DNA of 64,000 bases from NCBI RefSeq assembly GCF_003568845.1, contig NZ_CP030128.1, positions 186,001 through 250,000 on the forward strand, in the 5' to 3' direction. Of this stretch, positions 29,533 through 35,845 are shown one piece after another. Each line of letters opens with the position of its first letter. Within the stretch, counting starts at the first letter, position 1. The DNA comes from Indioceanicola profundi (GTDB lineage Bacteria; Pseudomonadota; Alphaproteobacteria; Azospirillales; Azospirillaceae). Both the position numbers and the translations under genes were made by a program. The notes under the pieces were generated by a model that worked only from the letters and a program-made list of their open reading frames with translations, searched no databases and was not told the origin of the DNA.

Positions 29533-30855
29533 CTATGAGGCTGGCGCAAATGCGGCCCTTATACAGTTCCGTCCCTGCGTCTTGGCGGCATAGAGCAGCC
29601 GGTCGGCTCGCCGCAGCAGCTGCTCCAAGGTTTCGCCGGTCTCCAAGGCGGCGACCCCGGCGCTGGCGGTGACTGCAATATGCCCCGGTCCGGAGACCGC
29701 GTCCTCGTCCAGGCGGATTGCTTCCTGCTCGATCCGCCGGCGCAGGCGCTCCGCTATGGCTCTCCCGACCTCCAAATCGCACCCGGGCAGGAGAACCAAG
29801 AACTCCTCTCCGCCAATGCGTCCCAGCAGGTCGATGCTCCGGATTTCCTCACGGCATAGAGTTGCGAACCGCTGCAGCACCCGGTCGCCGACAGGATGAC
29901 CAAAGCGGTCGTTGATGGTCTTGAAATGGTCCAGGTCGAGCATGATCATCGACAGCGGCTCGCTCCGCTGCGTGGACTGGACAAGCTGCCGGCCGGCCAG
30001 TTCGAAAAGCCGAGCCCGATTGAGAACTCCGGTCAGATGATCGGTCGTGGCGAGCCTGACCAGCGCATCGGCCTCAACGTACTCGCCATGAAGGCGCCGG
30101 GCTATGAAAAGGTACTGGCGGTTCTTCGGCTCCGCATCGAGAACGGAGACAAGACAGTCCCCGCTGAACCGCTGCCCGTCCTGGGTCAGCATCGGGCCGG
30201 TGGAGAGATGCCAGCCCTGGTCCTGGGCCGTCGCGAAACGCTCCCGCATCTGATGGTCCAATTGGGGGCCTGGTGGGAAGATGACGCGGATCGGCATGCC
30301 GAGCATCGTTTCCTGCCTCCAACCGAGCAGGTTTTCGCCGGACCTGTTCCAGTCCAGCACCCGGCCGAAATCATCGACCGTGCAATGCATGTATCCGGTG
30401 GCCCCCTGCAGGATGGCGGCGAACCAAGCGTCTGTCAGGCGGGTCCGTTGCTCCTGGCGGACCAACTCCGAAATGTCGGTGAGCGTGCCGACATAGCGAT
30501 GCGGGCTGATCTTCGTCACTGTGAGTGAGGCCCAGATCGTCCGTTGGGCGGGACCGAGGCTGCCGATATAGATGCGCCGGTTCTCGCATACAGAGCCGCT
30601 AGGCAGAGCCTGACTGCCCACCAGATGCGGCAGATCTGGAACACAAGTCTCCAGAATGCTGAACAGATTGTCCGGGTCGGCGCAGCTCGCCAGCAATGGC
30701 ATCAGCAGGCGCGGCACTTCGGGATTGATAAGCTCGATGCGGCCGGTGCTGTCAAACTGGACGATGCCAATCGGCACCTGGTAGAGAAGCCGCAGCAGGC
30801 TTTCATCTGCTTCGCCCGACGCGGGAAGCTCGCATGGGGGCATGTCCGCCAGCAT
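29533..30855 (-). CDS. PAS-GGDEF diguanylate cyclase
   Basis: A 440-residue protein with two PAS-like regions (~20-135 and ~145-260; the second has FGRVLDWNRSGENLLGWRQE) and a C-terminal GGDEF domain (~265-435). The active-site motif is intact as GGEEF (348-352). RSID (339-342), exactly five residues upstream, matches the RxxD inhibitory site, so the enzyme should make cyclic-di-GMP with product feedback. There is no membrane segment. Its ATG overlaps the stop of the PYP-like gene by one base (TGATG). Co-translation with the chromophore pathway suggests light input through the PYP or PYP-like protein, which is inference. Confidence 0.93.
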   Translation of the reverse strand: MLADMPPCELPASGEADESLLRLLYQVPIGIVQFDSTGRIELINPEVPRLLMPLLASCADPDNLFSILETCVPDLPHLVGSQALPSGSVCENRRIYIGSLGPAQRTIWASLTVTKISPHRYVGTLTDISELVRQEQRTRLTDAWFAAILQGATGYMHCTVDDFGRVLDWNRSGENLLGWRQETMLGMPIRVIFPPGPQLDHQMRERFATAQDQGWHLSTGPMLTQDGQRFSGDCLVSVLDAEPKNRQYLFIARRLHGEYVEADALVRLATTDHLTGVLNRARLFELAGRQLVQSTQRSEPLSMIMLDLDHFKTINDRFGHPVGDRVLQRFATLCREEIRSIDLLGRIGGEEFLVLLPGCDLEVGRAIAERLRRRIEQEAIRLDEDAVSGPGHIAVTASAGVAALETGETLEQLLRRADRLLYAAKTQGRNCIRAAFAPAS

Positions 30856-31229
30856 CAGGTCCGTCCAACAAGAACGAAACGCAAAGGTGCTGACGCCCGT
30901 TGCAGCAGGCGCAGCTGCACCCGGGTCGGGCGCATGCGCAAGGTCAGCACATAGGGAACCGTCTCGTCGAGCTCGGCCTCGCTCTCGAAGCGCTCAGCCA
31001 CCATGAAATTGTTCATGCAAGGCGCCACCGCTGTAAACAGCGGCTGGCCCAACACAGCGCCGTGCGACAGCCCGGCAGCCCCAGCCTCGTACCGGTTGTA
31101 GAGGCGGACGAGACCGATCCGGTCGAAGCCGATCACGCCCAGCTCAAGGCTGTCCGGATCGATTGTTCCGTCGAAGAGCTGCTCTTTGAGACGGGGGCAG
31201 CCAATCAGGCTCCGCTCCGGAAGCGTCAT
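30855..31229 (-). CDS. Divergent photoactive-yellow-protein-like PAS protein
   Basis: A 124-residue single PAS domain. Aligned with the true PYP encoded nearby, it keeps Tyr44, Glu48 and Cys71 in the same spacing as Tyr46, Glu50 and Cys73 there (H. halophila Tyr42, Glu46, Cys69). The Cys motif is TAVAPCMNNF, the chromophore-attachment context in PYP. The Thr and Arg that complete the PYP pocket are Ala52 and Leu54 here, and the C-terminal MKKAL...SYWVFVKRV block is not conserved. It could bind p-coumarate with shifted properties, act as a docking protein, or have lost the chromophore. TGATG overlaps join it to tal and to the diguanylate cyclase gene. Confidence 0.75.
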   Translation of the reverse strand: MTLPERSLIGCPRLKEQLFDGTIDPDSLELGVIGFDRIGLVRLYNRYEAGAAGLSHGAVLGQPLFTAVAPCMNNFMVAERFESEAELDETVPYVLTLRMRPTRVQLRLLQRASAPLRFVLVGRT

Positions 31230-32839
31230 CAGATCTCTCCAGGCATATCGTGTTGCGGCAGGGTCGGGCGCCAGCGGGTAGACAGGAACAGAGACGCCAA
31301 TGCCGCGATGTCCGGCGACAGCGGGCGGTCGCGATCCAGCGGGAGAACCGTCTGACGAACCCTTGCCAGGAGCTCCCGGCTGGAGACCGCGAAGGCCTTT
31401 ATTGAGCCTTCGGTCATCTCCATGGCCTGGGCCAGGGCGATTGCCTGGATCGCCAGCACATAGGCGGCAAGTTCCACCAGACGCGCCGTTCTGCGCGCCG
31501 CGATGGTGCCCATGGTGACAACATCCTGGTTTTCGGCATTGGTTGAAATGGATTGGATCGAGGCTGGAACGGCCAGGCTGCGCATTTCCGCCACGAGTGC
31601 CGTTGCCGTGACCTGCGCCCCCATCAGTCCGCTGTCCAGCCCCACGGTCCCGCCGGTCAGGAAGGCGGGCCGGCCGCCATTGCGCCGCGGGTCCGTAAGC
31701 CGTGCCAAACAGCGCTCGGCATGCACCGCGATCCCGGTCACGGCCAGGGCCAAGCTGTCCGACGCGTAGGCCACATGCTGGCCGAAGAAGTTGCCGCCGT
31801 GCAGAACATGACCATCCGCGGCAAAGATCAGGGGATTGTCGGTCGCGCTGACAAGCTCGGTTTCAACGATCCCGTTGTGATGGTCGAGCTGGTCCTTGGC
31901 TGCGCCGAACAGCTGGGGCAGGCAGCGGATTGTATAGGGGTCCTGGAGCAGGGGACGATTGTGCAAGACGCCGCTTTGGGCATCCACTTTTTCCAGCACG
32001 GGCGGTGGTTGCTGGGGTGCTTGAAGCCGGCTGCTGCTGCGGCACAGCCGCGCAAGCTCGGCATGGGCCCAGCGTTGGCCCGGATGCGGGCGCACCATCC
32101 CGAAGCGCGGATCAAACGCCTCGCTGTACCCGTGGAACAGCTCGGCGTTGCAGACGGCCATCTGGAGTGCGAGGTCCAGCAGGCGTCCGCAGCGGCTGCC
32201 GTTCAGCGCGGCGATCCCGGTCATCGCCGAAGTCCCGTTCACGAGGGCCAAGCCCTCCTTATGCCCCAATTGGGCGGGAATCAATCCGGCGTGTGCCAGG
32301 GCTTCGGCGCCCGCAACCCGCCTTCCGGCGACAAAAGCCTCGCCCTCGCCGATCATCACAAGGGCGACATGAGCCAATGGCGTCAGATCGCCGCTCGCCC
32401 CCACAGTGCCCATTTCCGGCACCACGGGCACCACATCCCGGTTCAGCATATCCAGCAGCAGCGCAAAGCTTGACGCCCCAATCCCGGAGTAGCCCTGGGC
32501 AAGGTTTGCGGCCCGCACGGCCATCAGGGCGCGCACCTGGTCGGAGGGCAACGGAGCGCCCACACCGCTGGCCAGATGGTAGATCAGGCCGCGCTGCAGC
32601 GCCTCGGCACATTCCGGCAGCACATGATGCTCGGCCAACGGCCCGTACCCGGTGGTCACGCCGTAAATCCGGCGGCGTTCCTCGACATGGCCCGACAGGG
32701 CTGCGCCGGCGGCGGCCATGCGCTCCCTCGCGGCAGGGTTGACTGTGACCGCTGCCCCGTGGGCGACGCGCTCGATCTCATCCAGGACAAGCGGTCCCCC
32801 AAGGTCGATTGCGCCTTCGCCTGCATGATGGCCGGGCAT
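31229..32839 (-). CDS. tal: Tyrosine ammonia-lyase for PYP chromophore
   Basis: A 536-residue member of the aromatic amino acid lyase family. The Ala-Ser-Gly triad that cyclises to the MIO cofactor is at 148-150 (GTVGASGDLTPLAH), the catalytic Tyr at 59 (RIYGVTTGYG). The selectivity pair is His88-Leu89 (LIYHLASGVG), as in Rhodobacter tyrosine ammonia-lyase, not the SH of histidine lyases or FL of phenylalanine lyases. It would deaminate tyrosine to p-coumarate. ATG 32839 overlaps the pcl stop by one base; the longer upstream frame is a shadow of pcl. The gene order supports the role fully. Confidence 0.93.
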   Translation of the reverse strand: MPGHHAGEGAIDLGGPLVLDEIERVAHGAAVTVNPAARERMAAAGAALSGHVEERRRIYGVTTGYGPLAEHHVLPECAEALQRGLIYHLASGVGAPLPSDQVRALMAVRAANLAQGYSGIGASSFALLLDMLNRDVVPVVPEMGTVGASGDLTPLAHVALVMIGEGEAFVAGRRVAGAEALAHAGLIPAQLGHKEGLALVNGTSAMTGIAALNGSRCGRLLDLALQMAVCNAELFHGYSEAFDPRFGMVRPHPGQRWAHAELARLCRSSSRLQAPQQPPPVLEKVDAQSGVLHNRPLLQDPYTIRCLPQLFGAAKDQLDHHNGIVETELVSATDNPLIFAADGHVLHGGNFFGQHVAYASDSLALAVTGIAVHAERCLARLTDPRRNGGRPAFLTGGTVGLDSGLMGAQVTATALVAEMRSLAVPASIQSISTNAENQDVVTMGTIAARRTARLVELAAYVLAIQAIALAQAMEMTEGSIKAFAVSSRELLARVRQTVLPLDRDRPLSPDIAALASLFLSTRWRPTLPQHDMPGEI

Positions 32840-34077
32840 CAGCGCATCTCCGGGGACATAAGAGGATGCCAATCCGCGGCTTTTCCAAGCGGGGTGCGCG
32901 GCAATGCCTCTCCCACAGTCCAGGATTTCGGGCATTCGGGGATGGAAAGGCGCGTTTCCGCCCAGTCGCGCAGCTCGGCTGCAAAAACCGGCCCCGCGGC
33001 CTTGTCGCGCGGGACGATGAAGGCTTTCAGGCGGAGCGCACCCGGGCCGCCAAAGCTCCGGACAGCGGCATCCTGGACGCCGGGATGCAGCCGGAGCACG
33101 GCGGCAACGCGGTCTGGAAAGACGTTCACGCCTCCGACCTGCACGGCTCCGTCCAGGCGCCCGGCAACATGGAATTGTCCAGGCGAGAGCAGATGGATCT
33201 TGTCCTGCAAGGCGACAGCGAGGCTTGAGCCGGTGTGCGAAATCTCTGTCCCGTCTGCGCGCAGCTGCCAATATGGGAAGAGCTGATAGGGTTCATCGGC
33301 GCTGGCGCGCCATCCGATGCCTGCGGTTTCACTGGAGCCGTACACCTCCAGAATTTTGTCCAAACCCTGCGCTTCGAGAGCCCTGAACACCTCCAGCGCC
33401 AGCGGGCCCGTGGAGGTCACGGCTCGCACGCCGGGAGCGAAGCGTATTCCGGATTGCGCCACGCTGGTCCAGAGCTCAGGCACGCCGACGAGGAGATCGC
33501 CACTGCGGAGATCCGCCGCAACCCTGGCCGGTAGGCGCCCGCGCCCGTCCAGGATCGGAATCCCGAGCTGCTGCGGCAAAAGCGCCGTGAAGAGAAAGCC
33601 GTAGATGTGATGACTGGGCACAAGGCTGACGATGCGCCGGACCGGGCCGAGAATGCGCGCCAGGTGCTCCGTCTCCTCGAGCAAGCGGTTCAGACCGTGC
33701 TGGCATGGCTTCGGCTGGCCTGTGCTTCCGGATGTGCGGAAGGTGACTGTTTCGGCGTAGTGGCTGAGGCCAACCGCCGCGATATCGATCCACTCGGAGA
33801 GTTGTCGGCGCGCAAGGAGGAGGTCCTCAACGCCCGACCGGTGCAGATGCAGCGCCTCCGTCAACGCCGTCGCCAGCGTGATCAGTTCCAAACTGTCCGC
33901 ACCCAGCCCAGCTGGGCCGATCTCGAGGTTCTCGGTCCGGTCCTTCAGCAGGGCGTCCCCGGCTCCCGGCCGGAGGCGTTGCAGCTCGCCCTCCACGAGA
34001 TCCTTGACGAAACGACCAAGAATGGACCGGTTTTGCCACCAGCCTGGTGTCGCAATGTCAGCTGGTGCGGTCGTCAT
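32839..34077 (-). CDS. pcl: p-Coumarate:CoA ligase of the PYP pathway, with ACP-like N-terminus
   Basis: A 412-residue adenylate-forming enzyme of the type found beside pyp genes; it activates p-coumarate before thioester attachment to PYP. Motifs are the P-loop TSGSTGQPK (115-123), VYGSSETAG, VAGRLDGAVQVGGVNVFPD and the catalytic Lys in RTPLGKA. Before the adenylation domain, residues ~20-100 look like an acyl carrier protein: LGADSLELITLATAL carries the DSL motif (Ser62) that receives phosphopantetheine. ATG 34077 has GGAG 9 nt upstream and is preferred over 34257. tal follows with a TGATG overlap. Confidence 0.9.
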   Translation of the reverse strand: MTTAPADIATPGWWQNRSILGRFVKDLVEGELQRLRPGAGDALLKDRTENLEIGPAGLGADSLELITLATALTEALHLHRSGVEDLLLARRQLSEWIDIAAVGLSHYAETVTFRTSGSTGQPKPCQHGLNRLLEETEHLARILGPVRRIVSLVPSHHIYGFLFTALLPQQLGIPILDGRGRLPARVAADLRSGDLLVGVPELWTSVAQSGIRFAPGVRAVTSTGPLALEVFRALEAQGLDKILEVYGSSETAGIGWRASADEPYQLFPYWQLRADGTEISHTGSSLAVALQDKIHLLSPGQFHVAGRLDGAVQVGGVNVFPDRVAAVLRLHPGVQDAAVRSFGGPGALRLKAFIVPRDKAAGPVFAAELRDWAETRLSIPECPKSWTVGEALPRTPLGKAADWHPLMSPEMR

Positions 34078-34300: not shown

Positions 34301-34690
34301 CTATACCCGCTTTACAAAGACCCAGTAGCTGTCTCCGACCAAAGCCTTCTTCATGTGGACCTTCACCTTGGTCGGCTTCATGTTGTAGTCGAACGTGTAT
34401 TCGATCATTGTATTGAGATTGCCCGCCTTCACGCCGGCATCGAACGCGCCCTTGAAGGCCGGCGTGTTTGTGCACGGAGCGACCTCGGTGAAGAAGTTCT
34501 TTCCGATCGCGGCCTTGGGATCGCGGCCGGTGATCGCGCCTTCCGCCGCATTGTATTGCAGAATTCGCCCCTGGGCATCGAGCTGAACGGCCCCGAAGGC
34601 CAGACCGTCAATGTCCTTGACGGACATCTTGGCCATGACGTTCTCAATATCGGCCTTGCCGAATTCCACAAGCTGCATGCCCCCGATCAT
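34301..34690 (-). CDS. pyp: Photoactive yellow protein
   Basis: PYP is a small cytoplasmic blue-light receptor with a p-coumaroyl thioester on Cys. The 129-residue product has every key residue: Tyr46 and Glu50 (hydrogen bonds to the phenolate), Thr54, Arg56 and Cys73, equal to Y42, E46, T50, R52 and C69 in Halorhodospira. Blocks LDGLAFG-like [47 protein letters not shown] and SYWVFVKRV are almost canonical. GGGAGG lies 8 nt before ATG 34690. The gene heads the pcl-tal-PYP-like-GGDEF series; the 220-bp gap to pcl leaves room for separate regulation or processing. Confidence 0.97.
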
Positions 34691-34849: not shown

Positions 34850-35845
34850 ATGACCTTGGGACATTGTGGGGACCTGTCTGGCCAACCGGTGAGGGTCATC
34901 AAGTTCGCGTTGGATGTGACGGTCCAGGCTCTGGCCCGGCAGCGCAGCGAGCACGTCGCCAGTCTCAAGGAAAGCGTTGCGGCGGGCGCGCACGAACTCA
35001 ACCTCTCCATGGAGGAAATTGCCGCCAGCATGGTCCGGGCGAAGGACACCACGGATGGCGCCTCCGCCATGGTGGCGGGTGCCGACAGCTCGGCACAACG
35101 CCAGCACGATTACATCAAAAATGAAGGGGCAGCACCCGAGGGACAGACGGTCAAGGGCGGCGGGCCGAAGATGTTGCGCTACCTGCTCGGCAGGCGGAAG
35201 GTCTGGGGAGCGGCCCTCGGCTTCGCGGCCTATGGCTACGTCTTCTTCCTGTTCCTGACTTGGTTGCCAAACTAGTTGGGCATCAGCATCATTAAGTCGG
35301 CCGGGCACGCTGCCATTCCGTGGCTCTGCGGCACGGTGGCGGAACTGATCGTCGGCGGCTGGCTTGTCGACCGGCTGATCCGCCGCGGCGCGGACGAGGC
35401 CAAGGTGCGCAAGACGGTACTGATAGCGGGTCTGCTGGTGGGATTGAGCGTGATCGGCGCGGTCTTCACCAAGGACCCGGCCTGGGCGATCTTCTGGATC
35501 TCCCTGTCCCTCAGCGGCCTCTCCTGCGCCGCCCCGGTCTGCTGGACCGTTCCGGCCCTGATCACACCAAAGGGCGCCGGCGGCACGGTGAGCGGCATCA
35601 CCAACGTCTTCAACAACATGTCCGGCGCTGCGGCCCCGGTGATCACCGGCTATATCATCAGCGGAACCGGTTCCTTCGCGCTGGCCTTCGCCTGCGCCGG
35701 CGTTGCCCAGCTGATTGGCATCCTGTCCTTCACGATGGTGCTGGGCTCCTTCGATCCTGTTCCGGACCCGGAATTCGTGAAGTCTCCGGAGGACGACCTG
35801 GACCGGCAGTCCACCGGCGTGTTGAGCCAGTCCAAGGCGGTCTGA
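34850..35845 (+). pseudogene. Chimeric remnant: chemoreceptor fragment joined to MFS transporter with internal stop
   Basis: One frame holds parts of two unrelated genes. The first part (to ~35100) reads VIKFALDVTVQALARQRSEH, SLKESVAAGAHELNLSMEEI and AASMVRAKDTTDGASAMV, the post-PAS segment of a methyl-accepting chemotaxis protein. Near 35110 it changes to a major-facilitator transporter (RYLLGRRKVWGAALGFAAYG, FLFLTWLPN). An in-frame TAG at 35273-35275 follows, after which the transporter continues (LCGTVAELIVGGWLVDRLIR, FWISLSLSGLSCAAPVCWTV, GGTVSGITNVFNNMSG) to 35845. The MFS part resembles sugar-acid (glucarate/galactonate-type) carriers and lacks its N-terminal half. Confidence 0.75.

Follow-up and report, generated by a model that had tools for sequence, protein, structure and literature searches.

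The window analysed here, a stretch of 64,000 nucleotides of the Indioceanicola profundi genome (contig NZ_CP030128.1), encodes two proteins related to photoactive yellow protein (PYP): a classic PYP and, about 3 kb away as an earlier note had described, a smaller PAS protein that shares its Tyr-Glu-Cys spacing. The locus raises the question of whether this second protein is itself a pigment-bearing photoreceptor, and on what it would act.

Organisation of the operon

The genes run on the minus strand in the order pyp, pcl, tal, clade C PYP and cyclase, and are listed here by coordinate:

29533–30855, minus strand: diguanylate cyclase of 440 residues with the architecture PAS-A (13–127), PAS-B (155–254) and GGDEF (Pfam GGDEF, E 3.8e-42, and PAS; predicted model)
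30855–31229, minus strand: clade C PYP of 124 residues; Tyr44, Glu48 and Cys71 correspond to Tyr42, Glu46 and Cys69 of Halorhodospira (H.) halophila PYP, with clade motifs VAPCMNNFMVAxRF and YVLTLRMRP
31229–32839, minus strand: tyrosine ammonia-lyase (tal) of 536 residues (Pfam Lyase_aromatic, E 4.4e-153), with ASG site and selectivity motif YHL
32839–34077, ATG at 34077, minus strand: p-coumarate:CoA ligase (pCL; TIGR02372, 342.7 bits against a cut-off of 334.7)
34301–34690, minus strand: classic (clade A) PYP (TIGR02373, 194.8 bits), with Thr50, Arg52, Phe96 and Trp119 kept

From pcl onwards, each gene shares one base with the next (TGATG): tal overlaps both its neighbours in this way, and the cyclase start overlaps the clade C PYP stop. 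The arrangement points to co-transcription and translational coupling. The cyclase carries a GGEEF active site, with an RSID inhibitory site five residues before it, as read from the translation. Its predicted structure (pLDDT 88) has a confident PAS-like fold at the N-terminus (PAS-A, residues 13–127), a segment for which the Pfam search returned no match. Upstream of pyp and in the opposite direction, 34850–35845 (plus strand) holds what appear to be fragments of a major-facilitator transporter, interrupted by a stop and possibly a pseudogene.

The genome contains a single match to the PYP-type pCL and three PYP domains: the classic PYP, the clade C PYP and one within a 912-residue open frame. 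All three thus appear to depend on one ligase. The third domain lies outside the window (C3:82674–83000, locus L002) and has Ppr-type relatives.

The second protein is a clade C PYP

The frame at 30855–31229, which the earlier note had given without a strand, is a real PAS protein gene on the minus strand, and Tyr44, Glu48, Cys71 (within VAPC), Ala52 and Leu54 stand in its translation where that note had placed them. Its similarity to PYP is beyond chance. The NCBIfam model TIGR02373 matches residues 24–121 with an E value of 5.5e-13 and 49.1 bits, far below the equivalog cut-off of 143.05 bits for classic photoactive yellow protein; other clade C members score about 59–84 bits. The PYP domain of Rhodospirillum (R.) centenum Ppr (PDB 1mzu) matches with an E value of 8.6e-12, while a Pfam search of the protein gave no domain match at all.

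The predicted structure (pLDDT 86) has a PYP fold, with Z scores of 15.1–16.5 over about 117 residues against solved full-length PYPs and 12.0 for the first non-PYP PAS domain, that is, about 16 against about 12 for a generic PAS domain. Together with Tyr, Glu and Cys at the right spacing, this fold places the protein in the PYP family. It resembles H. halophila PYP (clade A, e.g. PDB 2phy) in fold (Z about 16, rmsd 2.3–2.6) and in Cys/Tyr/Glu geometry, but identity is only about 26%, with Ala and Leu in place of Thr50 and Arg52, Leu in place of Phe96 and Tyr98, and no Trp119.

The C-terminus had been described as lost. This is rejected, as the predicted model contains the last strand (residues 117–123) and the sequence aligns with PYP to its end; the strand region carries clade C residues, with Phe for Trp119 and Leu for Phe96, as across the whole clade. 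The exchange of Thr for Ala52 and Arg for Leu54 is correct as read, but it does not set the protein apart, since Ala50 and Leu52 are the consensus of the PYP family (Dohmen 2025, PMC12826048) and occur in 46/50 and 49/50 members, respectively, of an independent clade C sample.

Clade C, the 'group 6' of an earlier PYP classification, is marked by loss of Phe92, Phe96 and Trp119, retention of Met100 and adjacent GGDEF genes (Xing, Gumerov and Zhulin 2022, PMC9664959). The window protein has Val, Leu, Phe and Met at positions 92, 96, 119 and 100, so that all the published residue marks are present, and the cyclase gene (29533–30855) adjoins it with the one-base overlap. In the tree it groups with Burkholderiales clade C sequences and is separated from clade A by a 100/100 split. 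A clade C profile scores it at 154 bits, within the clade C range of 129–212 and above clade A (at most 87). Neither a tree position with H. halophila PYP and Ppr nor the clade A pair Phe96 and Trp119 was found for it. The protein is therefore a member of a known branch, and the suggestion that it might form a new class of chromoprotein is superseded by this phylogeny, the clade having been published in 2022.

The terminal branch of the window protein, at 1.04 changes per column, exceeds all others in the tree, and the protein has Leu in place of the Phe found at position 28 in 79/80 relatives; this copy may thus have drifted. The clade C pocket differs from the classic one at positions 62 (Leu), 92 (Ile/Val), 96 (Leu), 97 (Thr), 98 (Leu) and 119 (Tyr/Phe). 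Judging from residues 62, 92, 96, 98 and 119, a colour or lifetime differing from classic PYP is plausible. Known Ala50-bearing PYPs absorb maximally at 435 to 465 nm (PMC12826048).

As of 2022, no clade C member had been thoroughly characterised (PMC9664959), and a literature search of open-access papers found no characterised clade C protein and no spectrum, holoprotein or interaction data for any member. Public annotation often calls clade C PYPs 'phosphonate transporter' (for example L176 5935–6297, L178 5938–6306 and similar records), apparently a misnomer, which Xing 2022 (PMC9664959) noted for PYP homologues in general; clade C PYPs are easily missed for this reason.

Distribution and related loci

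A scan of genome contigs retrieved 80 relatives (49–64% identity in the best segment), nearly all from Burkholderiales. Among 385 sampled alphaproteobacterial genomes the clade C score range was reached in the window genome only; clade C proteins are also carried on plasmids of Rhizobium, Methylobacterium, Sphingomonas and Polymorphobacter. The window protein shares residues, tree clade and an adjacent GGDEF gene with the published clade C PYPs and differs from them in its Azospirillaceae-type alphaproteobacterial host, its place after tal in an operon with a classic PYP, its long branch and its Leu at position 28.

Several known systems resemble parts of this operon. H. halophila likewise has its chromophore enzymes in an operon (pyp-pcl-tal), but its PYP is not coupled to a cyclase. 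Idiomarina loihiensis, for which a blue-light response of the biofilm has been reported (cited in PMC9664959 and PMC12826048), has a single-domain PYP beside a GGDEF protein, as in the window, although that PYP belongs to clade A. Four Methyloversatilis loci (L015, L031, L033, L042) have the same kinds of gene in the order lyase, pCL, clade C PYP and cyclase, with no classic PYP found in these genomes by a PYP-domain search. A Methylibium locus (L034), ordered lyase, PYP, pCL, clade C PYP and cyclase, contains every one of the five gene kinds of the window operon, so the gene set is not unique to this organism. Both differ from the window in gene order and in lyase lineage (YHG against YHL in the window, 38% identity). 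In Niveispirillum, of the same family as the window organism, pyp encodes a product 88% identical to the window classic PYP and is followed by pcl, and the 12 kb read there yielded neither tal nor a clade C gene; tal and the clade C PYP-cyclase pair accordingly look like later additions.

The cyclase as a near-constant partner

Clade C was surveyed with a profile in a sample of 294 genomes from the family that includes Massilia aurea (Burkholderiales); the search did not select on Tyr42, Glu46 or Cys69. In 50/50 of the loci examined from this survey, the gene immediately downstream of the clade C PYP encodes a PAS-GGDEF cyclase homologous to that of the window; in the set of 80 relatives, the cyclase starts within about 200 bases in 77/80 loci, around 30 of them with a 4-base overlap. 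PAS-A of the cyclase is as conserved as the GGDEF core. Beyond the pocket, conservation in clade C peaks in the stretch after Cys69 (M/L-NNFMVAQRF) and in the YVLTLRMRP strand and loop, both of them candidates for the surface that touches PAS-A. The link with the cyclase, raised in the earlier note, thus gains support from both conservation and gene linkage. Control of adjacent GGDEF/EAL proteins by clade C PYPs has already been proposed (Xing 2022, PMC9664959), and the clade C PYP probably controls the neighbouring c-di-GMP-making enzyme, presumably by contact.

Does clade C carry a chromophore?

The 80 relatives had been gathered with patterns that included APCMNNFM, which biases their conservation of Cys69 and Met70, and they were replaced for this purpose by the profile survey. 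Clade C proteins (129–212 bits, well separated from classic PYPs, which score 87 bits or less) were found in 59/294 genomes, and classic PYP in 15, all of which also have clade C; no genome among the 294 has classic PYP alone. Tyr42, Glu46 and Cys69 are kept in 50/50 clade C proteins examined, while position 70 is Leu as well as Met. PYP-type pCL was called at 250 bits or more against the 4-coumarate:CoA ligase model (matches 250–357 bits; next CoA ligases at most 130). It occurs in 36/59 genomes with clade C compared with 1/235 without any PYP (Fisher 2e-29), and in 21/44 genomes where clade C is the only PYP (Fisher 2e-18); as the genomes are related and not independent points, these values overstate certainty and serve as guides, not exact probabilities.

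Gene neighbourhoods point the same way. Ten genomes, picked because a pCL adjoins their clade C gene, yielded no further PYP domain, though some are metagenome-assembled and may be incomplete; in four of the ten (Methyloversatilis) an aromatic lyase also adjoins. Three genomes with both PYP kinds (G241, G366, G372) have two pCLs, one beside each PYP, and the Methylobacterium and Sphingomonas plasmids have the order clade C PYP, cyclase, pCL. The co-occurrence with pCL and the complete retention of Tyr, Glu and Cys make clade C itself the probable acceptor of p-coumarate, which is the simplest reading, and the window protein probably carries the same yellow pigment as the classic PYP of its operon. 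The chromoprotein or chromophore-acceptor role put forward in the earlier note is supported by these two lines of evidence.

Separately, 13 clade C proteins have Leu instead of Met at position 70, after the chromophore Cys, and all have a divergently oriented pCL adjacent (L106, L109, L111, L116–L118, L121, L122, L125, L126, L128, L130, L133); they may represent one subclade, or a link between this residue and loading.

The same survey bears on other explanations. The protein might be a degenerate PYP that has no chromophore and serves as a PAS adaptor, pairing with PAS-A of the cyclase or with the classic PYP and relaying the light signal of the latter. Such a role would suit the near-constant cyclase, the classic PYP in the window operon, the long branch of the window copy and the 23/44 clade-C-only genomes in which PYP-type pCL was not found, where loading needs another ligase or does not occur. 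It is nevertheless unlikely, given that Tyr42, Glu46 and Cys69 are invariant across the clade, and that 44/59 clade C genomes have no classic PYP from which to relay, with the ligase association persisting there.

Rather less probable still is that clade C loads another hydroxycinnamoyl or aryl thioester, or that its Cys is a redox or ligand sensor, with the cyclase controlled as in the p-coumarate reading. The altered pocket (62, 92, 96, 97, 98, 119) would allow for this, and other PYP homologues, those that lost Cys69, have been proposed to have undergone redox neofunctionalisation (PMC9664959), but the ligases linked to clade C score 250–357 bits with the 4-coumarate:CoA ligase model, where other CoA ligases reach at most 130, and the binders of the p-coumarate phenolate, Tyr42 and Glu46, are invariant. 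A p-coumaroyl carrier or loading chaperone that passes the thioester from pCL to the classic PYP, as sharing an operon with pyp, pcl and tal and keeping Cys in its VAPC context might suggest, is highly improbable: 44/59 clade C genomes lack classic PYP, Niveispirillum has pyp-pcl without a clade C gene, the constant partner is a cyclase and not a PYP, and H. halophila apoPYP forms holoPYP with p-coumaroyl-CoA with no further protein mentioned (PMC12826048).

Proposed mechanism

The favoured reading, considered likely, is that the clade C PYP of the window is a second blue-light receptor, with p-coumarate on Cys71, that switches the adjacent diguanylate cyclase by direct contact. The analysis establishes the fold and family of the protein, the conservation of its key residues, the gene overlaps, the linkage with the ligase and the near-fixed cyclase pairing, and from these we infer chromophore attachment, photocycle, colour, contact and direction of control.

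TAL would convert tyrosine to p-coumarate and pCL would convert this to the CoA thioester, from which it would be transferred to Cys71. Tyr44 and Glu48 would hold the phenolate in a PYP-like pocket whose tuning differs (Ala52, Leu54, Leu in place of Phe96, Trp119 absent). On absorbing blue light the chromophore would isomerise, and the change would reach PAS-A of the translationally coupled PAS-PAS-GGDEF cyclase through direct contact, with the RMRP loop and the clade-specific helix that follows the Cys as the probable route, and would alter c-di-GMP output. One chromophore pathway would in this way feed two receptors, the classic and the clade C PYP.

More tentatively, the clade C PYP and its PAS-PAS-GGDEF neighbour may form an obligate two-protein light switch, a photoreceptor with a dedicated receiver PAS, and so represent the missing signalling partner of single-domain PYP. 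In this organism the pair and the classic PYP, itself of another colour or lifetime, would draw on a single chromophore pathway, so that one operon would provide two light inputs; this wider proposal is a possibility somewhat short of an even chance.

Significance

Clade C and its GGDEF neighbourhood were already published (PMC9664959). New here are the co-occurrence of the ligase as evidence for loading, the near-fixed pairing with one type of cyclase, and the occurrence of a classic and a clade C PYP in one operon with a common chromophore supply. The ligase linkage provides genome-scale support for p-coumarate on clade C, and it yields a short list of genomes that have no PYP other than clade C. 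Because its partner is near-fixed and often coupled to it in translation, clade C offers a way into the question of how single-domain PYPs, a much-studied kind of photoreceptor, relay their signal.
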